From: Strigamia acuminata
Lineage: Eukaryota > Arthropoda > Chilopoda > Geophilomorpha > Linotaeniidae
Length of the DNA: 64,000 bases
Direction of reading: 5' to 3'
NCBI GenBank assembly: GCA_949358305.1
Contig: OX442314.1
Location: 27,699,118-27,763,117, forward strand
The position numbers and the translations under genes were made by a program. Below, piece after piece: positions 28,471 through 57,900 of this stretch. Numbering within the stretch: the first letter of the stretch is position 1; each line of letters starts with the position of its first letter. The notes under the pieces were generated by a model, which was not told where the DNA came from, ran no database searches, and saw only the letters and a program-made list of their open reading frames with translations.

Positions 28471-28622
28471 TGGCTGCGCGTTTGCGTTGACACCAATCAG
28501 TTTATCGATGAGCTTCAGTTGTGTTACCAATGTTACCATGTCTTCTGAAATAAATGAGCGGTCTGCTCCAGAATGCAGCAGTCCCAACAACGTCTGCTCT
28601 TGGATAATAACTGGTTACATCA

Positions 28623-28850
28623 CTACACTCAAAACCACCCCAACGTTGATCTATTTCAGCCGGTTTACGCCTAACTGTGTACTGTGTTCTACTACGCGGA
28701 AAAGTAGTTCTGTGTCAAAGCATCACCTTTGACAATGTTGGTAATCGAGCACAATGTCTGGAGTTCGATTACAATTCTGGTGTTTCGGACTACTTTTTTG
28801 TGCCACTACACCAGTGAAATAGATCAACGTTGGAGTGGTTTTGAGTATAG
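28623..28850. mobile_element. 228-bp MITE with 8-bp target duplication
   Basis: Inverted ends start CTACACTCAAAACCACCCCA and end GGTTTTGAGTATAG, extending about 37 bp each side to ATCTATTTCA. Flanks are TTACATCA at 28615-28622 and 28851-28858. The 8-bp duplication points to hAT or a similar superfamily. A second copy of exactly the same length, inverted, is at 36974-37201. No coding capacity. Confidence 0.88.
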
Positions 28851-28858
28851 TTACATCA

Positions 28859-29214
28859 CTAGAGCATCCATTTGCTCCCTAGCAACATTACAATAAATTA
28901 CACATCCACGTCCATTGCAAACAGAAGTTCCACCCAGAACGTGTCAGACTCTCCTTTGGAGAAATTTAATTAAAGCAAGCCCTAAGATGTGTCTTACGAA
29001 TTTTAGCAAAGCACAAGGCGTGATGTTAAAAATATGAAATTATATACTTTATTGCCGAGTAAAAGGTAATTTAATTATTTCGTTGGTTCAACCATAAAAG
29101 TGTATAGATGAAATACAAAGAAAGGTCTGTGGCGAGATACACATTGAAAAAATAGTTGAAAAAATAGTTGATGAAAAATGATATAAATTCAACAGTTTTG
29201 TACTTTATTCCTCA
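28859..29214. other. Spacer left of segmental-duplication copy A
   Basis: AT-rich unique sequence between the MITE and the duplicated block. I see no exon or repeat unit in it. Confidence 0.4.
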
Positions 29215-29568: not shown

Positions 29569-30317
29569 ATGCCCGCTCCTAAAGCTTTGCGCATCCGCCG
29601 GTTCCGCATTCGTACTCGCCAATTTGTGCGACAAGAATTGCAAACTTCACTGTCGGGCAAAGATAGTTTGCGATTTATAAACAACGTTCTCGAGAACACT
29701 GGAATAGTTCGTGCAGTTTGGTTGGTTGGTTGGTTGGTTTGTTTCGGCATTTGCGGTTATCAAACTTGGGAAAGATTTCGCTTCTACATGTCTGGACCCT
29801 TCAAAGTTGAAATTGATTTTGTTCCAATACAAGAAAGCAGATTCGCTGAAATTAGACTCATGGTGCTTGATACTCCTCTGATGTCGGAGTACTGGGACAA
29901 AATACCAGAACCGAACACAATTGATGATGTAAAAGAGAGAATGAGAGCATGCAGGGCCCCAGTGAGAGGAATCATTTTGAAGAAAGTCAAAGTTAAAAAT
30001 TACACACACTTGTGGGAACATTCCAACATTTCAGAAAATATGCAGCACTTTAAGTTCAGACAGGTAAGTAACCTTGGAAAAGTAAAAGAGCTATATTAAA
30101 AAATATTGTTGTCAGTATTTTGCTAATAACTACTTTTTCAGGGCAAAACTATATTACTTGAGACTAAGATGAAAAGTGGCAATTACACAAACCAGGAGAC
30201 AAGAGTTGAATTAAAATACAAGAATTCTGTTTTCGGCAGTACACTGATTGTGAAAACAGGTAAAATTCATATAATCATATTTTCCATTTATATAATCTTT
30301 TTGGCCGTAATATTATG

Positions 30318-30353
<36 letters not shown>

Positions 30354-33300
30354 TTAAGATTTACAACAAGCTCCAAAGAGAAAATTGCATTTCCTTTTTA
30401 AAAAAAATGGAACCTGTGTCGTACCAATGGTTGCAGTCAGTTCACTTTGTCAAATTGGGGATCCGTAATACGTGCAACATTCTTACGCGGTGTTGCGTAG
30501 TGCAAATATTCGTACGTGCGACGCGTACAAATCACGTAGGCATCCGTGTGCGCGATTAACAGACGTCCAAATTGGCCGAAAATGTCGGCGCCGACTCCAA
30601 GTCGCTTTGCTTGCGATGTTGGCACTGACTTCCCGCCCAATCGGCGCACCGACCGATCCACACACAGTCCTTGTCCCTCAGTTCGCTCTCGAGGAAACTC
30701 TGGATAAAATTCGTCACATTAACCGTAATATTTTTAGCCAATCATTCCGGTCGTAATCGTTCATAAACTCGGCCGACGTGATGAGCAAGTGGGCGATGCC
30801 GTTCTCGCTCTTGTTGCAATCACCCGAGTCGGCCGACGTCAAGCATGTGCATACATTTAAAAGTCGCCGTCGTGCCTATGAATGCTTACAATGTGAACAT
30901 GTGCGATGTTGCGCATATAGATACTTACAAAACTTGACGTCGCACGTGTGCATGCAAAGTTGCAAACAGTATGCATAATCGCGACGTTGTGCGTAAGAAT
31001 ATATCGCGTGTATTATAGAGGCCCGTCAAATTGATTCTCCTTCAAGGGGATGGCATATTTCGTTCAATCCTGATCGTATAAAATGTTCATACTAACCTGA
31101 TTTAGCATGGCTAACCGAATATACCATGAACAGTTTATGCGACTGGGATTGTACAATTGCGGTCATAAAAATTGTTTATTGCACTTCCATCATTTAATAC
31201 TAGGTATCTCTGAAGGATGGTGTCATGCCCTATCGATACACTTTGCCGGTGCAGATGGGAATTGAAGCTGAATTTCAATTTATTTTGCGTAAAGTGAGTT
31301 AATTGCTTGTCTGTTTAGTTCTAGCAATTTATTCAACGATGCAGCAAGATTACAGATATCTTGTGACAGTTATTAATTTGTATTGCAAATGGATGCATTT
31401 AACAAAAATAGTGATATTGTATTTCTTTTCTGCAAGTATCAATTTTTGCCTTCAAGAAAGCCCTACTGCGAGCCCAGCCTGATAAAGCAAACCCAATGTT
31501 ATGATGACTGTGTGACAAAACAAACTCTTAAAAAACATCCACAATGCAGGTCTGTAAACTTAGTTCACTGAAACAATTGATAATGCTGATTGATTGTTTA
31601 CTTAGGTTGCCTTACATGGGTGCCAAAAATCTGCCAGACTGCAGTTTAGAAGCAAACAAATCAACTGTGTTAAAAGTGTATGATGACTCCTACCATCCCG
31701 AAACATCCACGCTGGCGACAATTGAATGTGGTTGCCTAAGACCTTGTCAAACGAGTGTTTATATCCTAATAGTGAAGACCGATACTAGTTAGGTCAAACG
31801 ATATCATTTTGACGTGTAATTATAACAAAATTATTTTCTTTTTACTGTTAGATTTTGAAGATGAACCTAGTAGTAAAGATTTAGCAAGTATAAATCTTAA
31901 AGTGATGGAAGAAACATTTGTCAGAATGACAGAAATCTACATTTACAAAATCCCTAATTTGGTGATCGATTTTGGCGGTAATCTAGGATTTTCTTTGGGA
32001 TTTTCGCTCCTCTCTATAATCGAAATTGTACAATTTGTTTCGTTTTTGTGCTACAATAAGTATATTAGACCTGTTCGACTACAAGCTCACATAAAAGCGA
32101 AAGTCATTAATCAAATTAGAAAGTCAAATTTGAAGATAAAGGATGAAACTTTGCCTCAAGCCTCATCCATGCTACAACGCACGTTGTTTTTCATTCTCAT
32201 TTTTATTTTCGTCTTCTTAGCAGTTTATGTGAGCAAAGAAAGAATTACATTATATCTGAGTGAACCGACAAGATATGTAGTAAATATTCAAGAAAATGAC
32301 ACATTATATATGCCCAACGTTATTGCATGTATGGACGGGCCTTTAACGACACACTACAGGAACCAATATGCCAAAATTACAGGCATTCCAGAATGCAAAA
32401 TTCACTTTGTTGATTTAATGAATACAACCATCAAAGGGAAAAAGCCATCAATGGAAGATGTATGGCGCTATCAAACACCTATAATGGATATGGTTACCTT
32501 GGAGGCTGCTGCAAGTGTAAGTGTTTGGTCTGATGTCCAAGAACATCAGTAATCATTGTCTTTATGTTTCATCCGTGGGGCGGGGACCATCTGAGCACAT
32601 TGCAAATGAGCACCGAAATTAATTGAGCACCTCAATTGAGCACGTTGCAAAGGCGCTGTCTCACGTGGAGCACGTCCTAAATGAGCTCGTCTTAAATGAG
32701 CACTGATTAAAATGTAATAAAATAAAATAAAAATAAATTAAATAATATTAAGTTGCAAATGAGCACCCTATTTAAATTGGTTGCAGGGGAGCACGGGTTT
32801 ATTTGTATGTATATATAATAATAATAAAATGGGTTTCAAATGGGCACATTAGTAAATCCGTTGTTATTTCTTGTTATTTTTATAATAAGAAGAGTCTGGT
32901 AAGATAGCTACGCTTCTTTATAACCATGCGGCAAACATGGCATTTTAGAAGCACATCTATCTGAACAGCCCTTTGTACACAGGCAGAGCATGCAGTGTGC
33001 CCACACCTGTACACAACACTGCACTTGTGTGCATTGCACAGGAGACAGGTGGAATCTGTTGGTTCCAACTGCACCACTAGACCTGCGTTTGCCTCGGTCA
33101 GCACTTCGATCAACTGGGCCGCCACTCTATGAACTACCTCGGGTAGTTGTGCAATGGCCTGGAGTCGCTGCCGTTCCCCGATGTTGGCCCATTCATCAGG
33201 CATTACCGCATATTTCTCCTCAACAAGTGTCATAACGAGCGCTTGGGGCACATCTTCGGTAATGTTCCGTCTGGTTCTGCGGCGTTGCGCTGGCGTTTGT

Positions 33301-36300
33301 GCATTTAAAACGTGCTCATTTAAAACGTGATCATTTAAAACGTGATCATTTAAAACGTGCTCATTTAATTTAATTATTACTTAATTAATTATGTAATATT
33401 AATATTTAAATTTTTTAATTGGGTGCACAAATAAACCCGTGCTCCCCTGCAACCAATTTAAATAGGGTGCTCATTTGCAATGTGCTCAGATGGTCTAACC
33501 CCCATCCGTGGGATGGGATGACATTAAATCTTGGTTCTTAACCTTTATAGCAGTTGGCACCCCTTGACTTTTACAGTCTCTGCTCACAGCTTACCAAAGG
33601 AAAATATTTTTTTAACTAAGTTTTTACTGTTGTTACTGAACCACTTATGAAGTAACTTTGCACCCCTAGAATATCTATCTTGCACTCCTAGGCAATGCAT
33701 GCATTATCGGTTGAGAAGCGCTGCATAAAATGGGTCTAAGAACATCGGAAAAACAGTCTGCCATCCAATTCCTAATGGGTCGATAACTGTGGCAGTGATT
33801 AAATACACAGTAGGTCGATTTGCATTGGGTCAAAAGACATAATAAAACGCCCCCCAAAACTATGCATCCCCCGCAAAACAAACTGAAATGCCCCCCACTT
33901 TTTGAACCCCCCAAAAATATCTACTTCGCCCCCTTTAAAGTTTTTTTTCCCCCATTTCCTTAAACCCCCCAAACTAGGTTTTGTCGCCTCATTACGTCGC
34001 ATGAACGTGTTACGTGTAACGTTCGTGCAACGTACGTGTCTGTTTGACTATACAGTATAAGCTGGCTTGTGCGCATTCATATTTATTCGTATTCATACTG
34101 CGATGGCGATGACTTCACAAACGTATGTGTTCGTAAACTCCAATTCCGAATCTGATTCAGATCAATCCCGAAAGCGCCGGAAGTTGGGATTAAAATGGGC
34201 CAAACAAAAAGTTTTTGCTCACATCGACGAGGCATCTTTGACTCTGAAAGCTGAGCAGATGTGTGAGAAGCGACGAAACTCTACCACGCAAGAGGGAGAA
34301 GGTTGACCTTAAAAATTGGCGTCACTTTGATAAGACCTACATGTGTAAACACATTTTAAGTATAGCAATTGGTGAGAAGCTGTACTCTGTTCCGCTTGAG
34401 GCGAAAAATGTTCCTCTAGGAGAAAAAAGGAAACGTGGCAGGCCGTCTAAGGCTAAAAAGGCACTTTTCGTGCAATAACTGCTTATTTTGGGGGGTAATT
34501 GATTAATTTTTGATATTTCTGTTTGGGGGGAACTCAGTTTTTAGGGGGCCCAAAAATGTATTTTGGGGGACCAAGTAGATTTTCTTGATTGGTTTTATTT
34601 GGGGGGCCAAACATATTTTTTTCGGGGGGGGGGGGGGAAACCCGTTAATTCAGGGGGGCCATTAATAGCAATCCTTTGATAAATCTATTTTGAACCTGTT
34701 AGGTAGACTGTGCGAGTGTTATACTGTGAGCCGATACAACGTTGTCCTAATTCAAACCGTATCACTGGTGTAGTGGCACAAAAAAGTAGCCCATAACACC
34801 ACTAGAATTGTAATCGAAAAATAAAAAAACAGCAGGTTTAGCAAATTAAATAAAAAATTTATTTCCAAATAAATTAAATCTATCATTCTAATCACTTTTT
34901 ACGCTAAAACTAATTGGAAGTAGACAAAACTACTTTTCCGTGTAGTAGAGCTCACTCCACAGTTAGGCGTAATACGGCTTGAATTAGGACAACCTTGTAT
35001 CAGTTCAGAGTATAGATCAAACTAGTCCTTTCTACCAAATTCAATCATATACATAAAATGTATTTTCCTAACAGAACTTAGGAATAAAAGCAAATGTATC
35101 TTGGAGCAAAATTGCTATGCACACAGGAACATGCTATCAATCTCGAATAGGTAATTAAAAATTTGTACAAAAATTATAATTTTATAACAATTATAATGAC
35201 ATTATTTTCTTAGAACCACTAACATATGCAGGAGTTGCTTCAGCAATATTTTTTAGTTTTCGACCAAACAAACATCAAATCTGTAACCAAAATGAGTACG
35301 AGGTAATGAACAAATTCCATTTTTCATCAACTATTGAATTTTGCACGGTACTCGAATAAATACACAAGTTGCACAATACTTATCCACTAGGTGGACAAGA
35401 GTCGCCGTCAAGAGTCATAGTAATTAATCTTTTTGATAAATTACTAAAGACATTTGCAGTAAGCACAGATGAAATGTACCAACATCAGCTTGTATTTTTG
35501 TTAACTGTAGGGTTGTTTGATCAGAACTGATTTCATGCTAAATGTTAAGGTTACGATAACGGTAGTTTTCTTTCTGTAGGTGTACTTTAAACAAAGCGAA
35601 GCGACAATTCCATCAATTCCTTCAATACTAAGAAGCAGAAGAAGTATTAAAACAGACACCTTTACCATTCTCCAATTCAAAATGTTTAAAGTATGTTTGG
35701 AGACAATTATATAAACAAAACTACTAAAACTAAAACTACTAAAATCGATTGTTTTAATTTAGACCATTCGATTAAATCTGAAATCTCAACCTTGCCTTGA
35801 CCATGACAAATACATGAGATGCCAAGATGATTGCTACGAAAAAAAGATTTATAATATAATTCAGTGCAAGTGAGTATTTCTTTTTCTTTTTACATATATG
35901 TGACATTTAGGGAGTTACTGTATGAGTGGTGTCATCACTTTTCACACTTGTAAAAATCTGTGTTTTGGACATTAAGAAAACCAACAGATGAAATTTTAAA
36001 ACTTTACACGATGTAGTTTGCAATACATGTTATTTAAATATTATTAGGTTACCATTTTTGGTCAACATCAATAAGAATAATTGCACCAACCTTCAAGACA
36101 CTAAAACTTCATTGGCATCCTTCATGAACAATTCATTAACTACCGATACAATTATAGACTGCGGTTGCCATCCACCTTGTGAAGAGCCGGTGTTTGACAC
36201 ATTCGTTTTCTTTCAAGACAAACAAGCATGGCCAGTCAAACTTCTCGCTATAATTCCAATGAACAACATAATTGAAGAGATTAAGCAAATATTATCCTAC

Positions 36301-36429
36301 ACTGAAGTTGCATTGTGCTGTGACATTGGAAATTGTTTTTCACTAATGCTTGGCCTTTCAATTCTTGCAATTCCACAGCTATCACAAAAAATGTTTTTGC
36401 AATTTATTCGACTGACCAGAAAAAAGTGA
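29569..36429 (+). CDS. Two-unit (tandem-fused) DEG/ENaC channel, copy A
   Basis: Thirteen exons give one 864-residue chain: 29569-30063, 30142-30259, 30359-30435, 31204-31293, 31437-31549, 31606-31787, 31852-32516, 35075-35150, 35214-35302, 35369-35458, 35580-35690, 35763-35869, 36048-36429. Unit 1 has TM1 at about 46-66 after ENTGIVRAV (family HG motif reduced to TG), a Cys-rich ectodomain ending ECGCLRPC, and TM2 at 399-424 (NLGFSLGFSLLSIIEIVQF; filter GFS 408-410, E416). A basic cytosolic linker of about 40 residues leads to unit 2: TM1 at 469-486, MPNVIAC after it, ectodomain with DCGCHPPCEEP, and TM2 at 832-857 (filter GLS 840-842; Gln848 in place of the Glu). Both units have a phase-2 intron at QC[R/K]|LP. 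DEG/ENaC proteins are trimeric sodium-permeable channels of the plasma membrane. The donor of exon 3 (GCA|GTCAGT, 30436) was chosen because it keeps frame; a later GTAATA would not. Weakest call: acceptor of exon 10 (ACACAAG|TTG). Confidence 0.85.
32578..33502. mobile_element. TIR element carrying a RING-finger gene, inside intron 7 of copy A
   Basis: The ends GACCATCTGAGCACATTGCA and, inverted, TGCAATGTGCTCAGATGGTC lie within 925 bp flanked by CATCCGTG (32570-32577 and 33503-33510). Copy B of the duplication has the uninterrupted site (CATCCGTGGGATGGGATGAC near 46777), so this is a real insertion. Subterminal GAGCAC/GTGCTC repeats occur in both halves. An 8-bp duplication suits hAT-like families; superfamily not certain. 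Confidence 0.85.
32880..33233 (-). CDS. RING-finger protein encoded by the TIR element
   Basis: The frame from the first ATG (33233) gives 117 residues; the frame stays open upstream, so the start is uncertain and part of the N terminus may be lost. The C-terminal half is a C3HC4 RING: C-x2-C, x10, C-G-H-x2-C-x2-C, then C-x2-C (CLLC, RCGHTACSAC, KCHVC). Such domains usually bind E2 enzymes as ubiquitin ligases. Upstream is a helical stretch (ERQRLQAIAQLPEVVHRVAA). It lies wholly within a mobile element and is not part of the channel gene. Whether it is a captured host gene or the element's own is unknown. Confidence 0.6.
   Translation of the reverse strand: MTLVEEKYAVMPDEWANIGERQRLQAIAQLPEVVHRVAAQLIEVLTEANAGLVVQLEPTDSTCLLCNAHKCSVVYRCGHTACSACVQRAVQIDVLLKCHVCRMVIKKRSYLTRLFLL
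33841..34673. mobile_element. Internally deleted MULE-type transposon
   Basis: Copy B reads through this position (CAAAAGGCATTTGACAAACC near 52330), so the 833-bp insertion is bounded by comparison. Both ends are dense in CCCCCC (left) or GGGGGG (right) tracts forming imperfect inverted repeats. It carries remnants of a MULE transposase (see 34102-34478). No clean target duplication was identified. Confidence 0.7.
34102..34478 (+). pseudogene. MULE transposase remnant (FAR1/FLYWCH-like N terminus and SWIM end)
   Basis: Frame one, from ATG 34102, has an acidic-basic start (SNSESDSDQSRKRRK) and a KWAKQKVFAHIDEA segment like the N-terminal DNA-binding region of some MULE proteins. A frameshift then leads to YMCKHILSIAIGEKL followed by VPLGEKRKRGRPSKAKKAL and a stop at 34478. 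The CKH and the GRPxKAKKAL tail are typical of the C-terminal SWIM region of arthropod MULE-like proteins. The catalytic core is missing, so it cannot be active. Confidence 0.7.
34720..35015. mobile_element. TIR element related to the 228-bp MITE, intron 7 of copy A
   Basis: Inverted ends GATACAACGTTGTCCTAATT and AATTAGGACAACCTTGTATC, with outer TATACTGTGA/TCAGAGTATA, surround a core sharing CACTGGTGTAGTGGCACAAA and AAAACTACTTTTCCG with the 228-bp family. Absent from copy B. No exact target duplication seen. Confidence 0.75.
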
Positions 36430-36973: not shown

Positions 36974-37201
36974 CTATACTCAAAACCACCCCAACGTTGA
37001 TCTATTTCACTGGTGTAGTGGCACAAAAAAGTAGTCCAAAACACCAGAATTGTAATCGAACTCCAGACATTGTGCTCGATTACCAACATTGTCAAAGGTG
37101 ATGCTTTGACATAGAACTACTTTTCCGCGTAGTAGAACACAGTACACAGTTAGGCCTAACCCGGCTGAAATAGATCAACGTTGGGGTGGTTTTAGGTATA
37201 G
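36974..37201. mobile_element. 228-bp MITE, second complete copy
   Basis: Same length and ends (CTATACTCAAAACCACCCCA ... GGTTTTAGGTATAG) as the copy at 28623-28850, in the opposite orientation. It lies in the 3' flank of copy A. Its left target copy is degraded; the right flank is TTATGCTA. The matching place in copy B (60347-60373) holds a short footprint. Confidence 0.88.
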
Positions 37202-39904: not shown

Positions 39905-40086
39905 GTAAGAATTTTTCGACTTAGTCAAAACCACATTTGTCGTTTTATGCGACAAGAAATGCAAGGTTTAGTGTCAGACCCAAAGATAGTTTTTCATTTT
40001 GCAAGAAGTCAAAGTTGAAAACTATACAAATTTTTCGCTAAAAACCAATAATTCAAGTAATTTTCAGCACATAAATTTAAGACAGG
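39905..40086 (+). pseudogene. Decayed third copy of the DEG/ENaC first exon
   Basis: CGACAAGAAATGCAAGG and CCCAAAGATAGTTTTTCATTTT align with the QFVRQELQ...KDSLRF part of exon 1 of copies A and B. AAGAAGTCAAAGTTGAAAAC through TAAATTTAAGACAG aligns with the KKVKVKNYT...FRQ end, followed by a GTATTT donor-like site. The middle, including TM1, is deleted and the frame is broken. No other exons of the gene follow, so this is a lone relic. Confidence 0.75.
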
Positions 40087-42987: not shown

Positions 42988-45900
42988 ATGCCCGCTCCTA
43001 AAGCTTTGCGCATCCGTTGGATCCGTATCCGTACTCGCCAATTTGTGCGACAAGAATTGCAAACTTCACTGTCGGGCAAAGATAGTTTGCAATATATAAA
43101 CAAGGTTGTCGAGAACACTGGAATAGTTCGTGCAGTTTGGTTGGTTGGTTGGTTGGTTTGTTTCGGCATTTGCGGTTATCAAACTTGGGAAAGATTTCGC
43201 TTCTACATGTCTGGACCTTTCAAAGTTGAAATTGATTTTGTTCCAATTCAAGAAAGTAGATTCAATGAAATTAGACTCATGGTGCTTGATACTCCTCTGA
43301 TGTCGGAGTACTGGGACAAAATACCAGAACCGAACACAATTGATGATGTAAAAGAGAGAATGAGAGCTTGCAGCATCCCAGTGAGAGGAATCATTTCGAA
43401 GAAAGTCAAAGTTAAAAATTACACACACTTGTGGGAGCATTCCAACATTTCAGAAAATATGCAGCACTTTAAGATCAGGCAGGTAAGTAACCTTGGATAA
43501 GTAAAAGAGCTATATTAAAAAATATTGTTGCCAGTATTTTGATAATAACTACTTTTTCAGGGCAAAACTATATTACTTGAGTCTAAGATGAGAAGTGGCA
43601 ATTACACAAACCAGGAGACAACAACTGAATTAAAATACAAGAATTCTGTTTTCGGCAGTACACTGATTGTGAAAACAGGTAAAATTAATATAATCATATT
43701 TTCCATTTATTACCGTATATCTGTAAATAGCACACCCGTGCGCTTTTAGAAAATTTTTTTTTGGCCCTTGCGCTATTAGTATCGGCAATGAAAAACACCT
43801 AAAAGTGTGACAATTGAAACGTTTTCCATACGTTTCGGTAATTTTCTGCCGAAACGTATGCAAAACTTGTCATTTGTCATCCTTTTTTGGCACATTATCG
43901 GGGCTCCAATTGTGTATCCGCGCGCAATTCGAGGCCCATGCGTTATTGGCAAAAATAAAATTTGCCCCGCGCGCAATTGGAGGTTCGCGGGCTATTAGAG
44001 GTCCGCAGACAATTCGACGATATACGGTATTTAATCTTTTTGGCTGTATTTTTTTATTTTTTTTATTTTTTTTAGATTTACTACCGGTTCAAAAGAGAAA
44101 ATTGCATATTCTTTTTAAAAAAAATGGAACCTGTGACGTACCAATGGTTGCAGTCAGTTCACTTTGTCAAATTGGGAATTCGTAATATGTGCAATATTCT
44201 TACGTGCAATAATACCAATCACACCTAAGAATCGTGTTGCATAGTGCAAATATTCGTACCTGCGACGCGTACAAATTACGTAGGCATGCGTGTGCTCAAT
44301 TAGCGGACGTCCAAATTGGCCGAAAATGTCGGCGCCGACTCCAAGTCGCTTTGCTTGCAATGTTGGCACTGACTTCTCCCAATCATGCACTGACCGCTCC
44401 ACACTGCAACGATCCGGGTCTTTCTGTTTAATATTCGGAAGGAATAATAAATAATCACCTTTGAGATGCCATATTAAACTTTGTTACCGCTTGGCCACCC
44501 AGGGTCACCTGCGTCACTGCCACACACCACCTTACAGCCCCAAGGTCATCCCCTGTATGGGTGGACTGACCTAGCCTAGGGGAAGAGGGAGCTGAGTGAT
44601 GTGGTGGAGAGTTGAGTGTGATAGGTGAGAGAGAGAGGTTGGTTTGTCTCTCTGTCTGTCACCGGTCGTGCTAGAGAGAGGTGAGTCTCTCTCCGACTGC
44701 GAGGGAGAGAGGAGCTGTGATCATCGAGGGGACAAGACGTGTCCCGGCCTATCGTGGACTCTGCACTCCTTGCCATTCACCACAGCAAAGCTCAGTATTA
44801 TGGCGGTCTCTTTAGTGCACCCTCCATGAGTGGCTGCATGGGTCGTGGGTGAGTACGACATGAGTGTTATGTCGAACCGACCACGTCACCCATAGGGCTC
44901 ACGCCCTGTGTGTGACGGGTAGGTTGCCGGTGCGGTGTGCCTACTGGCATCCCTACAACGGGTGACGGGATTCCCCATACCCCTAGACAACACATATTAA
45001 AGGCCAACAACCAATAATAAGGAGTCTTTGTCATTTATTCATGAGTATGCGTCCCACACCAGGATAACCAGTCCCTGGGTTACCTTGGCGAAGACCAATA
45101 CTTACAATGTGCACTTGTGCGTCGTCGCACATGTACTGTACATACTTACAAAACTTGTCGTTGCGGTGTATGCACGCAAACATTATCGCAACATCGCGAG
45201 TAAGAATATCGCATGTATGATAGAGGCCTGTCAAATTGTTTGTCCTTCAAGGGGGTGGCATATTTCGTTCAATCCCAATCATAAAAATTGTTCACACTTA
45301 CCTGATTTAGCGTGGCTATCCGAATATACCATAAACAGTTTATGCAACTGGGATTGTACAATTGCGGCCACAAAAATTGTTCATTACACTTCCACCGTTT
45401 AATACTAGGTATCTCTGAAGGATGGTGTCATGCCCTATCGATACACTTTGGCCGTGCAGATGGGAATTGAAGCTGAATTTCAATTTATTTTGCGCAAAGT
45501 GAGTTAATTGTTTGTTTCTTTAGTTCTTGCAATTTATTCAATGATGCAGCAAGATTACAGATATCTTGTGACAGTTTTTATTGCGGATACATTTAACAAA
45601 AATAGTGATATTGTATTTCTTTTTTGCAAGTATCAATTTTTGCCTTCAAGAAACCCCTACTGTGAACCCAGCCTTATAAAGCAAACCCAATGTTATGAAA
45701 ACTGTGTGTCAAAACAAACTCTAAAAAAACATCCACCATGCAGGTCTGAAAACTTAGTTCACTGAAACGATTGATAATGCTGATACTGTAGATTGTTTAC
45801 TTAGGTTGCCTTACATGGCTGACAAAAATCTGCCAGACTGCAGTTTAGAAGCAAACAAATCAATTGTGCTTAAAGTGTATGACAACTCCTACCATCCCGA

Positions 45901-48900
45901 AACATCCACGCTGGCAACAATTGAATGTGGTTGCCTAAGACCTTGTCAAACGAGTGCTTATACCCTAATAGTCAAGACCGATACTAGTTAAGTCAAACGA
46001 TATCATTTTTAGGTGTAATTATAACAAAATTATTCATCTTTCACTCTTAGATTTTGAAGATGAACCCAGTAGTAGAGATTTAGCAAGTATAAATCTTAAA
46101 GTGATGGAAGAAACATTTGTCAGAATGACAGAAATCTACATTTACAAAATTTCTAATTTGGTGATCGATTTTGGCGGTAATCTAGGATTTTCTTTGGGAT
46201 ATTCGCTCCTCTCTATAATCGAAATTGTACAATTTGTTTCGCTTTTGTGCTACAATAAGTATATTAGACCTATTCGACTACAAACTCACATTAAAACAAA
46301 AGTCATTTATCAAATTAAAATGTCAAATTTGAAGAAAAAGACAAAGAAGACTTTGCCTCAAACCTCGCCCATGCTACAACGTACGTTTTTCATTCTCATT
46401 TTGATTTGTGCTTTCTTAGCAGTTTATGTGAGCAAAGAAAGAATTACATTATATCTGAGTGAACCAACAAGATATGTGGTAAATATTCAAGAAAATGACA
46501 CATTATATATGCCCAACGTTATTGCATGTATGGATGGACACTTAATGACACACTACAGAAACCGATATGCCAAAATTACAGGCATTCCAGAATGCAAAAT
46601 TCACTTTGTTGATTTAATGAATACAACTATCAGAGAGAAAAAGCCATCAATGGAAGATGTATGGCGCTATCAAACACCTATAATGGACACTGTTTCCATG
46701 GAGACTGCAGCAAGTGTAAGTGTTTGGTCTGATGTCCAAAAGTGTAAAAGAACAGTAATCGTTGTCTTTATGTTTCATCCGTGGGATGGGATGACATGAA
46801 ATCCTGGTTCTTAACCTTTGTAGCAGTTGGCAACCCTTGACTTTTGCAGTCTCTGCTCACAGCTTACCAAAGGAAAATATTTTTGAACTAAGTTTTTACT
46901 TTTAACCACTTCTGAAGTAGATTTGTAGAATATCTATCTTGCACCCCCAGGTGGTTGTGACGATTCTACTTTTGGCTGAATATACAGTATTAGCCTTTAA
47001 AGATAAACCTAAACCTACAGAGTTAGACTAAAACTGTGCGCTAACACAGGTAACGTGATTATGTTTATTATAAAGTACGACTGGATTCTAGGTTCTGGGC
47101 ACGTGTAAACAGGCAGCATCGTCTGGTTGAGGATCTGGACGGGCCAAGGGATAGGGCTGGCTTCGCGGCATCGTCACAATAACATTACATGGTCGTATTC
47201 GGCCACGTGGCTGAAATGCACAAAGATGCAGAGAATCCTCTGCATTTACCGAGATTTATAACATCGATTATTCAATTGATGGAATCGTGATTCGAACAAT
47301 ACTAAACTATAAAAACATAACAAATAAATAGACCCCGGATAAATGCATAAATGCATAGAATATATTTATATTGAATAAAAAGCTGAAATTGGCTTAAATT
47401 GCATATTTCGCAAAAATCGGTAAATAAATGCATAAATCGCCATTTTTCCGAGAAAAAACTGCGATTTATGTCTTTTTTTAACGATACGTAACATGTACGT
47501 ATCAATTTTTGTCTTTTTTTTTAAGACACGTATTGTGTACTTATGCTTGCATTCGGAAAACTGAGGATTTTGCCAAAAACAGACACCAGGGGAAATCACT
47601 AAATTAGTGTCTGGAAAAAGTTTTAAGAAATAAACAAATAAACAAATAAAAAAATAGCAAAAAATGAATTGTAATTACTAATTATAATTCATTTACATCA
47701 AGAACACTTTCAAATGGCATTAAGTTGTTATTTAACACCTGATTTCACTTGAATAATTTTTTTTATTTTGCATATTTGTATTTTTATTTTGCATAAAATG
47801 GAATTTTTGGTGCTTATTTTATGCGCATAAAACGAATTTTATTTTGCATAAATATCCGGGGTCTACAAATAAAAGTTAGATATTAATAGAAACTGGATAA
47901 ATGCATAAATGCATACAAATAATTTTTATTGAATAAAAAGCCGAAATTGGCGATAAATGCATATTTTTGAAAAATCAAAAATAAATGCATAAATCGCCAC
48001 TTTTTCCGAAAACATGGCGATTTATGACGTCTTTTTACGATACGTAACGTGTACGTATCAATTTCTGCCTTTTTAAAGAAACGTATTGTGTACGTTTCAT
48101 GTACGCTTCATTTGCATTCGGAACTGAGGACTTCGCCTAAAACAGAAACCAGGGGAAGTCACTAAATGTGTGAAATAAACAAATAAAAAAGTTAAAAAAT
48201 AGAAAAGAATGAATTGTAATTACTAATTATAATGCATTAACATCAAGAACACTTGGAAATGGTATTAAGTTGTTATTTAACACCTTATTTCAATCGAATA
48301 AATTATTTTATTTTGCATATTTTTATTTTTATTTTGCATAAAATGAAATTTTTAGTGCATTTTTATGCACATAAACCAAATTTTATTTTGCATAAATATC
48401 CGGTCTCTAGATATTAATATTATCGGCGGGGTCAGTCACGATGGTTTTAAGGCCATCGCGGGAGATTATTACACCTCCATCCGCCACATAGTCATAACAA
48501 CTAAGAGCCATGACGGTCGTAGAATCATGAATGATCCATGGCTGGGAGGATTTATTGTTCGGGTATTCCTTCCCGCATGATAACACTTTATAAATACAAC
48601 AGCAATTCAATTACTCGGGCGAGCTATTGCCGAAACACACGACAACAAGTCATCACTTTATAGTCAAGCTACTGAGGGGGTCTAATGCTTTTCAATAGAG
48701 AGATCACAGACACAAACCAAACAGAAAAACAGAAAAAGCCGCAGTTCAGAAGTCGGTTCATTTCGTCGCCGACGGTTTTGTAGTTTTAGTGCCCAAAAAT
48801 CAATGTTTTTACTAATTTTTTCTGTGGGTCATTTTGTCGCCGGTCATTTCATCCCCACTCATTTCATCGCCGTTCATTTTGTTGACGCTCATTTCATACT

Positions 48901-51900
48901 GTGGTGGTTTTAGGGTTATATTTTGAAGAAAGATAGTAGATGCATTCAGCCTTCCTCTTCTCGTTGGTGTACGCATATCCCCCCATGCACAACTTGGGTT
49001 TATTTCGATTGGTCTTGCTCATCACAATGTCATTACAAGTGGCCATTCTACAGCAAAGCGATTGTAGTTAGTAATCAATCATTTGATATGCACATCTTTT
49101 ATACTACACCACAGGGCTGTAATGTCATACAAACGTAGGTCACGTTTATCTAACAAACGTAACACCCTGGGCGTCGAAACGACCAATAGCCAACAAAACA
49201 ACTAATAGGCGACGAAATGAATGTCGAAAAAACGACTGGTGACGAAATGACCGGCGACGCAACCATTGGCGACGAAATGACCAGCGACAAAACAAACAGC
49301 GACAAAACCATCGGCGCCGAAATGACCATACAAAAAAAAGAAACAAAAATTTACCAACGCTGAAAAACACCCATATTTCATCGCCGTTTCCGGCAACAAA
49401 ATGATCGGGAACGAAACGTGGGCGACGAAATGATTGAACTCTGCCATTCCAGGGCGGGCAAGATCATGCCCAGGCACAAATTAGTCACCTCTAATCTTAT
49501 TGTTCTCAAGAACTATACAGGGTGTCCCAAAAGTCTGAACCACCCTAAATATTTCATGAGCAATTGCATCTAGGCCAACTTTGATGAAACGATCGTATAG
49601 TAAGTTGGGTGAGAGCAATCCAATGACGTCATCAAATTTGACCTTGGAGGTCATTTTCAAGGTCATTCACTTGCTAACTTCTAAACCAATCAGGTTAAAG
49701 CAAAATTTCCAATTAGAACGTTGTAGAGCATGGCCTAATTAGTCTAGAACTGTTCTTAAAAAAGTTATCTCGTACTGAAAGGTTTTGAGAAAAAAAGGTT
49801 TGAAATGTTAGTCAACTCAGCTTTGTAACTCAGCTTTGTAACCTAAAACTATTGAGGCAACCAAGCTAATCCTCAATTAGGATACTTTATTGGGTCATAC
49901 TTGTAAGTAGAAGAGAGGAAACACAAAAGAAAGGAAATAATTAATTTTGGAAATACATTCCACATGATAGTTTTAGGTTACAAAGCTGAGTAGATTAACA
50001 TTTCAAAACTTTTTTTCTCAAAACTTTTCAGTAAGAGATAACTTTTTTAAGAACAGTTCTAGACTAATTAGGCCATGCTCTACAACTTTCTAATTGGAAA
50101 TGTTGCTCTAACCTGATTGGTTTAGAAGTTAGCAAGTGAATAACCTTGAAAATGGCTTTAGAGGACAAATTTGATGACATCATTGGATTGCTCTCACCCA
50201 ACTTCCTCTACGATTGCTTCATCAAAGTTGGCCTAGATGCAATTGCTCACGAAATATTTAGGGTGGTTCAGACTTTTGGGACACCCTGTATAGTTCTTGA
50301 GAACAATAAGATTAGAGGTGACTAATTTGTGCCTGGGCATGATCTTGCCCGCCATGGAATGGGGATTTACCACAGCGGGAGGGACGCATACATCAAGTAA
50401 CAACAAGACAGGGACTAAGATTGCTGAATTTTTGCCTTTAATCGTTGTCTAGGGGTCGGGTCATCTATCTTACTGTGTGGCTGTGCCGTTAGGCATGCTA
50501 CACCGGCATCCGACCCGTCATACCCAGGGCCTAAGTCTCATGGGTAACGTGGTCAGTTGCGTTGGACGAACATTGTGTCGTACTTACCCGTACAACCCAT
50601 CTAGCCGCTCATGGAGGCTGCAGCAGGCACAACTTCCTTTTACTGAGCGTCACAGTGGTGAATGGTGAGAGCAGCAGAGTCAGCAGTTGTCTCTGCTGTG
50701 GTTGGGACCGTGGCAACTCACCCTGGCACGTCTTCACCCTCGGCTCTCTCAGCAACGTTTCTCTCTCACCACACCACTCAGCTCCCTCCTCGGCCGGTCC
50801 ACTCCTCCAAGAGTTGGACAGCTTGGAGCCACCAGGCGGTGTTTGGAGTGACTTAGGCCACTAGGGTGGCCAAACAGTCACAAATTGAATACCAGAATCT
50901 AGAGATTCGGAGGTCCAATCTAAAGACAGGACCAAATCTCGAAGAGTCCAATTGGCTCTCTTCACAGGTAAGTATAAACATTAATATTAAGGAGTTTCAT
51001 TAAATGAGCGATTATTGTGATTAGTTGATTATTGAAATAATCGTAATCACTCAATTATTGAGGGCCCAACAAAAATCTGATTATGTGATTATTGCTCCGA
51101 TGGGCGGAATTGTTTAAATTGTAACCTAAATACCGTACCGCCCCGTTTAAAAGCCCGGGCGTTTAATTCTTTTTTTCAGCCGCCCTTCCCGGCGGCTATT
51201 TGAGGCCCGGCGCTAAAATGAACCAGGCGCTTAACCAGAAAAAAATGTAAATTATTGATTGGAAACTTTATTTTTTGCTCCGTTGTTGTAAAATCCATCC
51301 AAACACAGCTGATTCCGGCCCCAGTCATTCGTTTTTTAACAATCTTCGTCGTATTGTTGGTTTTTTTAGCTATCGCTGCTTCCAAATACCGAAACAGTAC
51401 TGCACGTTATCTAGACGTACTCGTTGACCCGGCGCTTATTTGAACCCCGGCGTTAATACGGGCCAGGCGCCTATAAACTTTCCGGGTGCTGACTGCCAGG
51501 CGCTTAAACGGGGCGGGCGCTTAAATGAACCCGGGCGTTTAAACGGGGCGTTACGGTACGTTGCAATTGTTTAAAAAAAGTTTCTACAAATGCAGCCGTG
51601 GTAATTCATCCCCAAGCCATTTTACTATTGGGATCGTTTTTCTGTATGTGTATTTGTCCACAACATTGAATTAAGGGTATCATGGACCAATATACTTATA
51701 AAAAAGTATTGGAGGATTGTTATGCTTCCATTTGAAGATGATAAACTGTCTTTGACTTGGATATTTCAGCAGGAAAATGATTCTAAGCACACAGTCAAGT
51801 CAATTGCTCAGTGTTCCAAACCCATCACACTTAAGTTTTGACTTGGGCTGCACAATCACACATACAAAATTTTGGTTAACCAACATAATATTGAAATATA

Positions 51901-54900
51901 TTGTTCAAATAAACAATGATTTTCTGAAGAAACCGGTTTTTTTTGTGCTTTTTTTGAATGTGGTGCTAAACTTTTGTCCAGCACACAAACACTAAAAATT
52001 ACTATTATTAATTACGATGGATGATTTATTTAAATTTTTTAACATTTTCTAAGGCAGAATTTAATGCTGAATTCATATTTTTTATCAGAAAGATGCTGCA
52101 GGCTTTACTTTTTTGTCAAAACACAAAATAGTGCAAGTGACGGTAGTGGTGCTAAACTTTTGGCCACCACTGTAGTTCATGCACCATCTGTTGAAAAGCA
52201 CTGCATAAAATACTTGTAGACACGAAATGTGTCAAAGAACATCGGAAAAACAATGTCTGCCATCCAATCCCCAATGGGTCGAAAACTGTGGCAGTGATTG
52301 AATATACAGTAGATCGATTTGCATTGGATCAAAAGGCATTTGACAAACCTATTTTGAACCTGTTATACAGGGTGGAACAAAAGTCTGTTCCCCTCGAATA
52401 TTTCCTGAGCAATTGCATCTAGGCCAACTTTGATGAAGCGATCATATAGGAAGTTGGGTGAGAGCAATCCAATGATGGCGTCAAATTTGACCTTGGAGGC
52501 CATTTTCAAGGTTATTCACTTGCTAACTTCTAAACCAATCAGGTTAGAGCAAAAAAGTCAATTACAAAGTTGAAGAGCACCATTTGTTTAGTCAATATCC
52601 ACTTTTAAATCTTATTGTTACCTTTTCTTATCTTGTGAAAAAAGTGAAAACATAAATTTCAAAACTTCCTCAGTTACTAGAAAAAAATCAAATCAAATCA
52701 AATTGAAGTTTTCTTTAACTTCTGTATTAGAATAATGAGGATAAGGAAAGGATAATTAGTCCAGTATTTGCTCAATGTGCCGACCACCAGCACCAAGACA
52801 CAATTCTGCTCGGTTTTGTGTAGATTTGTACACTGCATCGATTGTTTGTGGTGTGATTCCAGCACATGCTGCTGTTATTCGATCTTTGATTTCATCTATA
52901 AATGCTGGCTGAGTTTTGTAGACAACATCTTTTACATGACCCCAAAGAAAGAAGTCTAATGGTGTTAGGTCAGGAGATCTTGGTGGCCATGCTATTGGCC
53001 CTCCTCGTCCAATCCAATGAACTCCAAATAAGGCATTTAAATGCTGACGAGAAGCAAGTGCGAAATGTGGAGGGGCACCGTCATGTTGATACCACATTTG
53101 ACGTGCCGAGGCCAGTGGTAAGTTGTCAACATACTCCTCAACTGTATTTGTCAAGATGAGATCACAATAACGCTGGCCTGTTAAAGTGCCATTGAAGAAC
53201 ACAGGACCAATGATTTCTTTGTTGTAGATTCCACACCACACATTACAGCGCCAATTTACTTGGTGTGCTACTTGGCGTAACCATCTAGGATTTTCTGAAG
53301 CCCAATAATGGAGATTGTGTCTGTTGACAGTTCCATTGCGTGAGAATTGGGCCTCGTCTGACCACAAGACTTTTTGAGGAAACAGTTCATCATTATCAGT
53401 TTGGGTTAGGAACCAGTCACAATACTCTGCTCGAGTATTGAAATCAGTTCCATGAAGTTCTTGGTGGCAGTGTAAATGGTATGGATGGAAATGATTGGTG
53501 TGCAGTACTCTTAACACAGATGTATGGGCACAACCAACATCATTAGCAATTGCTCTGCTGCTGAGATGTGGGTTTGCTCCTACTGCTGCCAGAATTGTTG
53601 TGCTCATGTCATCATTTGTCACTGTTCTTGGCCGACCTTGTCGAGGACGTGACTGTACACTTCCCGTTTCCCGGAATCTCTGAACAATTGATCGAAGTGT
53701 TCGTGGTACTGGATGACGTCGATTTGGATATTTTGCACTGTACAACCTAGTTGCGGCTGCACCATCTTCATTTGCTGCACCATAGCAGAACATCATGTCT
53801 ACCATTTCTTGGTTTGTGTATTCTGACATAATGTCTGAAATTTGGATCTGGAAATTTTTTGAGTTTTTCTGGGAAATGAACGTGAGAACTTTGTACTGAA
53901 AAGCAAGCACTTATTAGGATCAGCTTGTAATGAATCGCGTTTCTAAGATTAAATTAGACACGTTTTGAAATGCAGTATCTCAGGAGCCTGGTTTGAGTAC
54001 CTGCCCGGCAGTCAATGTACACCGGAAGTTGGTGGCATACACTCCAAATACCTCTAGTCTTTACACAATTTTATTTTTTACCGGGCCTTACCAAGCCTTA
54101 AAAATGGAGACAGAAATGTTGAAACCAAAGAAATTTGGAAATTGACGCGTACTGACCAAGCAAATGCAAGGCAGCACGCCCGAAAAGAAACTAGACACGG
54201 AAATAATGGCTACATAAATCTTGCCCTATTCTGAGGCACACGTCACGTTGCTAAAATAAACAAAGGGAAAAAACAAAGGAATTCAAATGGAATAAAAACG
54301 AACGAAATGCGTATTCAAATGTGGTGAAAATGGAAAAAACTCAGTGGTCAGGAAATTGGTCCACACTGAGCAATGGGAAAGCAAAATATCAGCTCCCAAG
54401 TGAATTATGCAGGCTTGTGAGAATACCGGCTAGTTAAAGCTCTTACACATTCAAAGCTCAAAGCACAACTGACTTGAAAAAGGAAAAAGAGGTGAGAGCT
54501 AAACTTGGTCCAGAATAGACTGGGCCAAGCTTAACCAATCACGGAAAGGTCAGGAAACCAATCAAATGCATCGGTGCATACCAAATGGGTATGACTCATG
54601 ACGATGCATTGAAGGTTTAGAAATATGCAAAACAAAACATAGAGAAAAGAAAGTAAACCAGGAAAGAAAGGTCGAAATTGAAACAAAATAAGAAAAAGTT
54701 AAGAGAAACTAACATAACAAACTTCAACACAAAATAAGGTAGGACTAGGAATTAGGTTTAATGAACGAACAAAACAAACAATGCACGAATTATGCCAACA
54801 AAACAATTGGAAACACAGGGGAAAAAGCGCGTAGAACTCGTGCGCGTATCCCTGGACCGTGACAAGCTGAACTGACAGTTAAGTTTTTATGTTCAGTTAA

Positions 54901-57900
54901 CATGCTTAGTTTCTGATTTTTTTTGTCACATTTTTTTTTGAGTTTTGAAATTTATATTTTCACTTTTTTCACATGATAAGATAAGGTAACAATAAGATTT
55001 AAAAGTGGATATTGACTAAACAAATGGTGCTCTTCAACTTTGTAATTGACTTTTTTGCTCTAACCTGATTGGTTTGGAAGTTAGCAAGTGAATAACCTTG
55101 AAAATGGCCTTCAAGGTCAAATTTGACGCCATCATTGGATTGCTCTCACTCAACTTCCTATATGATCGCTTCATCAAAGTTGGCCTAGATGCAATTGCTC
55201 AGGAAATATTTGAGGGGAACAGACTTTTGTTCCACCCTGTATAGACTGTGCTAGTGCTAGATCAAACTAGTCCTTTCTACTAAATTCAATCATTTACAGG
55301 ATAATTGTGCATAAAATGTATTTTCTTGACAGAACCTAGGAATAAAAGCAAATGTATCTTGGAGCAAAATAGCTATGCACACAGGAACATGTTATCAATC
55401 TCGAATAGGTGATTAAAATTTTTTACAAAAATTATAATTGTATAACCATTACTACCGTCTTTCCCCGAATACAACACCATGGTGTTGTATTCGAATACAA
55501 CACCAGGGTGGTCTTATATTGGAATACATCACTGTGGTGTTGTATTCGAATACAACACCAGGGTGGTCTTATATTGGAATACATCACTGTGGTGTTGTAT
55601 TCGTCAAATAACATGTAAGTTTGTAAAAAAAAGAAAATTGCTTCCCAAATTGATTTATAAACATGATAGCCTCTAACAACATAAGGGTGCGTTTGGATCG
55701 GTTTAGATCGGTTTTTTAAAAAATCCGACCCAATTCAAAAAATTGCGGATGGGTAAATTGATGATTCAATCCTATCCGAAAAAAAATGGCGTTCTATCCA
55801 ATCCTATCCGCATTCAATTCAAACCGAATGCGGATTTCGGATCGGATTGAGTTCCAAATTTCACATTTCGCAATACAGTGTAGGCTGCGTAGCCCGGACA
55901 TAGCACCATCCGGACAGCTGTGTGGTCCGGACAGTTTGGAGGGCCTGATTTAGTCCCATCCACTACCCAGCAATATTAAATCTCCTCTCCCATCCGGACA
56001 TTCCCTAGACCGGACAAGTTTCTGGGTCCCGTCCTATGTTCGGGCTACGCAGCCTACACTGTAATGTTGAAATAAGTTTTAAAAAAAGTATTGTTTAGTT
56101 TTATTGAAAATTCCAAAGATTTAATTGAACATTAGAACTTAGAAGTTAGGAAATAAAAATTAAAAATTAGAAAATTATAATGAGAAACTTGGCAGATTGA
56201 ATTTTTTGACTATTTCAATTTTATCCATGATTTCAAGCACATGGAGGCAGTTATGCTTTCTTTGGATAACGTTCTGCGATTTGGAGGAAGCAAATCAACT
56301 CCACCAGAAAACTCTCTCTCTATTGGAACTAATGTGACGATATGGCACTTATATACCGGAAAAACGAAATACAAACGTCCTATAAACGAAACTATGAAAG
56401 CATATAGACGAACATGCACGTCCTAAACACGTTATTTTTATTTCATCAGCAAAAAAAAAATTGGATTATATGAATCGGTTTCGGTTTTTTCAAACATCCC
56501 GATCCGAAATGTACGGATAAAAATCTGGAATATCCAATCCGATTAAAAAAAACGGATTGCTTTGAGGCCATCTGAAACTGACTCAATCCAATCCGAATTC
56601 GGTTTGAATCGGATTGCATTCGATCCGACCCCACCCTTAAACAACACTAACTAACTTGAATTCACACATTTCTAAACAACCCTGTTTGCACCACTGCACA
56701 ACACACCTTCAATAAACAAATTTGTTAAATGTGTATGTTTAATATGTAAAATCCAGTGCACGTTTCGGTAGCGTTTTGGAAGCGTGCACTGTACGTCTTT
56801 CATAGTTTTCTAAAAATTCGAATATAACACTATGGTGTTATAGCTGAAGTAGTGATAAATTCGAATTTTTGCTCAATGTTTACAAACTTGCCATTTTGAG
56901 CAAAACTCGAATACAACACAATGATGTTATATTCGGGGGAAGACGGTAGTGTAATGACCTTATTTTCTTAGAACCACTAACATATGCAGGAGTTGCTTCA
57001 GCAATATTTTTTAGTTTTCGACCAAACAAAGATCAAATCTGTAAGCAAAATGAGTATGAGGTAATGAACACGTTCCATTTGTCATCAACTCTTGAATTTT
57101 GCACGGGACTCGAATAAATACACAAGTTGCACAATACTTATCCAGCGGGCGGACAAGAATCGCCGTCAAGAGTCATAGTAATTCATCATTTTGATAAATT
57201 ACTGAAAACATTTGCAGTAAGCACTGAGATGAAATGTACTGTCACGTGCACAGTTTTCATCCCTTTTCTAATTTATCAGATTTTTCCATTTTATTATTTT
57301 TCTAAGTTAACCTATTTTTATTTCTATTATTTCTGCAAGTGATCTTTTATAATGTATGCGCAGATAATTCTTTGCGCATCACATTATTTTCTGATTCATC
57401 TTTAGTTCTGCCCCACCCCTGATCACAATTGACATTACCTGCCAATCATGTGATCAGAGCTGATTTCTGGGCTAACAGACCTGTAAAATTCACTTTCTGG
57501 CTTGATTGTCGACAGAATACATCTCTCTGGACTTTCAGTTAGTTAGTCACTCTTCTTTTAAACCCTGGCACAACACAGAACCTTGGTTAAAACCCAAGTC
57601 ATCTGCTAGTGCAGGGTTTCCCAAACGGTGAGGCGCGCCTCACTGGTGGGGCGCGAGCTGATTATTGGTGGGGCGCACCCATCATACATGCCTAAATAAA
57701 ACAAGCTTATTTTGCAAACTTTTATAAATTTTTAACCAAAATTATACAAAATTATATAAAAAATTATACAAAGTTTTATGCAACTTTATATTAAAATTTC
57801 TTTTTTTCTTTTTAGTAGTATATTTTTTAAAAATTTAATGCACTGGTAGATGAAGTGAGGCGCAGAAGATCGCCTTGCTTAAAAAGTGGGGCGCGATGCT

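Follow-up and report, generated by a model that had tools for sequence, protein, structure and literature searches.

A DEG/ENaC gene of the centipede Strigamia acuminata appears to be a natural channel concatemer: two complete channel units are encoded in one uninterrupted coding frame, and this design is found in two gene copies. Both copies lie in the window analyzed here, a 64,000-nucleotide (nt) stretch of contig OX442314.1 (positions 27,699,118 to 27,763,117, forward strand) that consists of animal-like DNA with introns and a GC content of 38%. The claim of the first-pass annotation, two channel units per chain from a single gene, is well supported at the DNA level, given that an intact paralog shares the join. 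We consider the fused gene and its chain, as distinct from the seating of that chain in a pore, to be likely; that the fused chain is made, a matter judged here from DNA alone, appears very likely.

In our sequence-based model, copy 1 consists of 12 coding exons with GT-AG borders that splice to 834 residues, with the sole stop at the end of the frame:

29569..36429, plus strand: copy 1 of the fused gene (GT-AG borders, one open frame, PF00858 match, 834 residues)
29569-30063, 30142-30259, 30359-30435, 31204-31293, 31437-31549, 31606-31787, plus strand: coding exons 1 to 6 of copy 1
31852-32516, 35075-35150, 35214-35302, 35580-35690, 35763-35869, 36048-36429, plus strand: coding exons 7 to 12 of copy 1

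The first-pass annotation had described a single spliced frame, which stands, made of 13 exons and 864 codons, which does not; this correction does not touch the main point. Two alternative borders were considered for this model. An exon 3 ending at 30420 was set aside (donor score of −6.9 vs 2.9 at 30435), and an exon 5 start at 31461 was rejected, since its AG is absent from copy 2 and 31437 suits both copies.

The chain of copy 1 contains the following predicted segments, in which BRTNaC1 (broad-range thermal receptor 1), a channel of solved structure, served as the reference for alignment and TM denotes a transmembrane segment:

29701..29757, plus strand: TM1 of unit 1, residues 45-63 (hydropathy; alignment with BRTNaC1 TM1)
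31852..32516, plus strand: exon 7, the junction exon, an open frame with TM2 of unit 1, the linker, TM1 of unit 2, and the start of the second ectodomain
31962..32048, plus strand: TM2 of unit 1 with its GFS motif, residues 396-424 (hydropathy; BRTNaC1 alignment), sequence DFGGNLGFSLGFSLLSIIEIV
32049..32168, plus strand: linker of 40 residues with 9 K/R and 2 D/E, taken as cytosolic
32169..32240, plus strand: TM1 of unit 2, residues 465-488 (hydropathy; alignment with BRTNaC1 TM1)
36310..36390, plus strand: TM2 of unit 2 with its GLS motif, about residues 796-822 (hydropathy; BRTNaC1 alignment)

Both units are recognized as members of the family. The whole copy 1 chain matches PF00858 with an E value of 7.7e-31 in three stretches and, with its halves searched separately, reaches 74.7 bits in residues 1-457 and 44.4 bits in the remaining 377, compared with 72.7 and 40.5 bits for the halves of copy 2 and a curated cut-off of 23.6 bits. 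In the PF00858 search suggested for the spliced protein, each half separately scores above this cut-off, in both copies. Even the exon 7 translation of copy 1 by itself (read from 31851) reaches 54.5 bits in two stretches. In each copy, the mean Kyte-Doolittle hydropathy exceeds 1.6 at four places per chain, corresponding to two TM segments per unit. The ectodomains contain 10 (unit 1) and 12 (unit 2) cysteines; ten N-glycosylation sequons are confined to these two regions, at identical residue numbers in both copies, and the basic regions of the chain are the N-terminus, the linker, and the C-terminus. The topology proposed earlier, with both termini inside the cell, fits the hydropathy, the sequons, and the basic regions, and is the one we predict. 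The G-x-S filter noted in both TM2 segments is likewise present in both units of both copies, as GFS (copy 1) or GYS (copy 2) in unit 1 and as GLS in unit 2.

Three smaller observations concern the same chain. A furin-like site, RSRR, occurs at residue 653, in the unit 2 ectodomain, in both copies; furin cleavage activates ENaC subunits, and by analogy a processed unit 2 is a possibility. A match of unit 2 to QueC (E about 0.005, under its cut-off) was taken as chance. AlphaFold models of exon 7 from both copies had a mean pLDDT (the per-residue confidence of the program) of 38 and were not used.

The join itself is located in exon 7. The earlier description of this exon, at 31852-32516 and stop-free from TM2 of unit 1 to TM1 of unit 2, was confirmed, with AG/GT borders. 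The best new evidence for the fused design comes from copy 2, which has the same join:

42988..59811, plus strand: copy 2, intact paralog of the same two-unit design (834 residues; PF00858 on both halves)
42988-43482, 43561-43678, 44076-44152, 45409-45498, 45631-45743, 45805-45986, plus strand: coding exons 1 to 6 of copy 2
46051-46715, 55333-55408, 56972-57060, 58972-59082, 59144-59250, 59430-59811, plus strand: coding exons 7 to 12 of copy 2
46051..46715, plus strand: junction exon 7 of copy 2, with a 41-residue linker at 46248-46370
39944..40085, plus strand: decayed exon 1 piece of a third copy (two blastn pieces of 72% and 80% identity; a stop within the tblastn match)

The two copies have 12 exons each, with identical phases, and both encode 834 residues in a double-unit frame; an alignment of the two proteins covers 833 residues at 90.5% identity and has one single-residue gap on either side. 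Between the units, both copies are free of stops, and the distance from TM2 of unit 1 to TM1 of unit 2 is 120-123 nt. No AATAAA is present in exon 7 of either copy, and the 200 nt past the stop codon contain it four times in copy 1 and three times in copy 2. That these are not two adjacent genes read as one, as the first-pass annotation had argued, is upheld by the stop-free join in both copies, its 120-123 nt spacing, and the restriction of indels to in-frame ones.

To these features can be added the pattern of substitution between the copies. The 833 codons compared differ by 53 synonymous and 86 nonsynonymous changes (Ks 0.103, Ka 0.046). The Ka/Ks ratios of 0.44, 0.50, and 0.34 may be somewhat low, transition bias being ignored by the method, and the binomial p values against equal rates are 1.4e-5 for the whole chain, 0.009 for unit 1, and 1e-4 for unit 2. 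By this comparison, both units are under purifying selection. The possibility that the copies are pseudogenes was rejected, since both frames are intact and Ka/Ks is below 1. Only two coding indels separate the copies, each of 3 nt. For the introns, we find 45 differences at 569 sites and gaps of 11, 5, 10, 1, and 1 nt in the six of eleven introns that could be aligned whole; the other five were excluded from the comparison because their lengths are too different, several introns of copy 2 being far longer than those of copy 1. Intron 7 carries further features in both copies. In copy 1 it contains an inverted-repeat element (32576-33504) with 54-nt arms (32753-32806/33427-33480) that are 100% complementary and that enclose a minus-strand open reading frame (ORF; 32880-33380), RING-like by eye and with no Pfam match; in copy 2 it contains a minus-strand, DUF4817/HTH transposase-like ORF (52756-53910).

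Several points weigh against the fused reading and need to be set beside this evidence. The exon 3 donor of copy 1 (3′ end at 30435) is weak, with a score of 2.9 vs 3.7 to 12.5 for used donors outside intron 3. The linkers contain weaker variants of AATAAA, namely ATTAAA twice in copy 2 and CATAAA and GATAAA in copy 1. A Met precedes TM1 of unit 2 in both copies, so that separate initiation of unit 2 is conceivable, and exon 7 of copy 2 holds donor-acceptor pairs able to shorten the product. In addition, the linker residues show no constraint (4 synonymous vs 12 nonsynonymous changes, p of 0.51), an open 120-nt frame is found in 808 of 6,542 non-coding samples of the window, and after 16 random changes both copies are still open in 36% of trials. 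The linker is still open and in frame in both copies, and the odds of its openness, taken alone, are weak evidence; the weight rests on the frame running into a complete, selected unit 2.

These points bear on two rival explanations of the join. Tandem arrays can collapse during assembly, and an assembly is the basis here, such that intergenic DNA could have been lost from between two units that are truly separate genes. We regard such an artefact as very unlikely: the same join is found in the same frame in both copies despite 45 differences at 569 intron sites and length differences of as much as about 6 kb in other introns, and it sits within one exon. It is less far-fetched, yet still quite unlikely, that the fused chain is just one isoform, alongside single-unit subunits produced by internal initiation or by splicing within exon 7. 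Copy 2 has four donors in this exon that share one acceptor (46419), and three of the four pairs shift the frame; the pair 46302-46419 would stop the chain shortly past TM2 of unit 1, leaving unit 1 alone, and the pair 46087-46419 would excise TM2 and TM1 in frame. In copy 1, a looser scan also lists position 32220 as acceptor-like. However, exon 7 of copy 1 has no cryptic intron pair at site scores like those of used sites, at least one exon 7 pair arises in 28% of 500 mononucleotide shuffles, and excising the stretch deprives unit 2 of its TM1. A single-unit isoform is possible, but the candidate sites do not support it beyond chance.

Comparison of the two units suggests how the fused gene may have originated. 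Units 1 and 2 share 75 of 362 aligned residues (21%), rising to 29% over the last ~140. Introns 1 to 5 of unit 1 and the five introns of unit 2 have the same phases, 0,1,0,0,2 in order. Two of these five intron pairs fall in the same column of the unit alignment and one is a column off, with the remaining two being 14 and 18 columns off, within a poorly aligned stretch; the sixth intron of unit 1 (phase 1) has no counterpart in unit 2. The simplest reading is descent of both units from a single gene that already had introns, with exon 7 representing a last exon joined to a first. A recent internal duplication was rejected, as the 75 of 362 shared residues make the units about as distant as BRTNaC1 and PDPNaC1, a second solved channel; for that pair, a similarity of 23% is reported (PMC12714832). 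In the origin that we propose, two single-unit DEG/ENaC genes of the short type known from centipedes lay in tandem. Loss of the DNA separating the final exon of the upstream gene from the initial exon of its neighbor would have joined them in frame, by fusion at the DNA level rather than by splicing across two genes. The resulting single gene would encode both channel units in a chain with four transmembrane segments, and the whole fused gene would have been duplicated afterwards.

Among solved structures, the closest sequence relatives are BRTNaC1 and PDPNaC1, two channels of the centipede Scolopendra subspinipes mutilans (PMC12714832). From these relatives alone, a myriapod source of the window would be likely. 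BRTNaC1 (PDB 8ymr, 8ymw, 8ymx) is the best solved match of the whole copy 1 chain (E of 1.7e-15) and matches unit 1 and unit 2 with E values of 2.4e-15 and 2.6e-13, while PDPNaC1 (PDB 9jf7) matches the two halves of copy 1 with 7.5e-6 and 4.3e-7. These alignments extend along most of the length of unit 2 and cover unit 1 in two blocks. BRTNaC1 shares with the window proteins a short ectodomain and a similar unit length (431-residue chain), but it has one unit per chain, whereas they have two that share about 21% identity. PDPNaC1, a proton-dissociation channel of the centipede antenna, is a 421-residue homotrimer with one unit per chain, in contrast to the two-unit window proteins, and like them lacks the canonical His-Gly (HG) motif (PMC12714832). 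HG, common before TM1 in DEG/ENaC proteins, is found in neither copy 1 nor copy 2; because PDPNaC1 also lacks it, we did not take its absence as defining against family membership. By these similarities, the protein would, as these two centipede channels are, be a sensory cation channel. A pattern search of genome_contigs with exon 7 as query gave 586 matches, none of which was a relative by tblastn.

The two units also differ at positions that matter for the pore. Gly378 of PDPNaC1 forms a constriction, and Ser at this position raised Na+ selectivity (PMC12714832). Counted along the alignments, the corresponding residue is Gly in unit 1 and Ser in unit 2. Furthermore, the TM2 Glu shared by unit 1, BRTNaC1, and PDPNaC1 is replaced in unit 2 by Gln, with a Pro just ahead. 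Given these two differences, unit 1 and unit 2 would contribute different linings to a pore.

DEG/ENaC channels are generally trimers of separate subunits, and a two-unit chain cannot fill three seats evenly; therefore, it would have to take a fixed partner, leave one unit spare, or form pores in pairs. K2P, TPC, Nav, and Cav channels also have several pore units per chain, through gene duplication and fusion. Their pores, however, are tetrameric or pseudo-tetrameric, and two or four units per chain divide evenly, unlike two units in a three-seat pore. Provided that the fused chain is made, we favor, at roughly an even chance, an arrangement in which both units of one chain would occupy neighboring seats of a single trimeric pore. 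A single-unit subunit, or else a unit from a second chain, would take the third seat. Both chain ends and the linker are predicted to be intracellular and the two ectodomains extracellular. Two of three seats per chain is not the sole option, since the six units of three chains suffice for a pair of trimeric pores; the possibilities include a chain paired with a single-unit partner, a pair of chains with a unit to spare, and a trio of chains forming two pores.

In the last of these arrangements, the unit 1 parts of three chains would form one pore and the three unit 2 parts another, tied by three linkers. The result would be covalently tied pores with different lining residues (Gly vs Ser), perhaps gated together. 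Three chains hold exactly six units, with none spare and no partner needed, and such a twin pore would agree with the divergence of the units (21% identity), with Gly vs Ser at the place of Gly378 (numbering of PDPNaC1 per PMC12714832), and with selection on both. However, unit 2 has no TM2 Glu, and with Gln in its place and Pro just before, it may make a poor pore alone; we consider this arrangement, the boldest of the readings, unlikely. Far less credible, indeed extremely unlikely, is an even-numbered assembly in which two chains would form a four-unit channel without spare units. By cross-linking, surface ASIC1a was reported to be tetrameric (PMC4529235), but PDPNaC1, a nearest solved relative, is reported to be a homotrimer (PMC12714832), and ASICs are treated as trimers in a study of ASIC2a/3 (PMC10329638).

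Chains with joined units have counterparts made in the laboratory, which speak for the fused reading. Engineered ASIC1a chains of two, three, and four units gave currents, and the two-unit construct gave ASIC currents, yet smaller products were detected as well (PMC4529235). Three-unit ASIC2a/3 chains served to fix stoichiometry (PMC10329638). Engineered ASIC and ENaC concatemers likewise join subunits head to tail through a cytosolic linker, but they are laboratory-made, whereas the join in the window is genomic and present in two copies. The statement of the first-pass annotation that no natural two-unit channel of this family had been described agrees with our keyword searches of one open-access library, which returned none in listings and abstract starts and left most subscription papers and unannotated cases out of reach.

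Other features of the window lie around the two genes. Palindrome-like short elements at 28620-28860 and 36975-37195 flank copy 1 and have in common ACCCCAACGTTGATCTATTTCA or a near copy of it (by eye). Further upstream, between 6810 and 19426, six plus-strand ORFs (from 6810, 9527, 11677, 14379, 16394, and 18368) carry an RNPITG motif near the C-terminus and are apparently a tandem family; Pfam searches with four of the six gave no match. On the minus strand, 62065-62604 matches BACK (BTB and C-terminal Kelch) with 17.9 bits, below the cut-off of 20.9.

Altogether, the gene would be a natural counterpart of the laboratory concatemers that fix subunit order, with both units kept by selection in two gene copies. 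As such, it would offer a design of evolutionary origin on which to test the rules of DEG/ENaC assembly.

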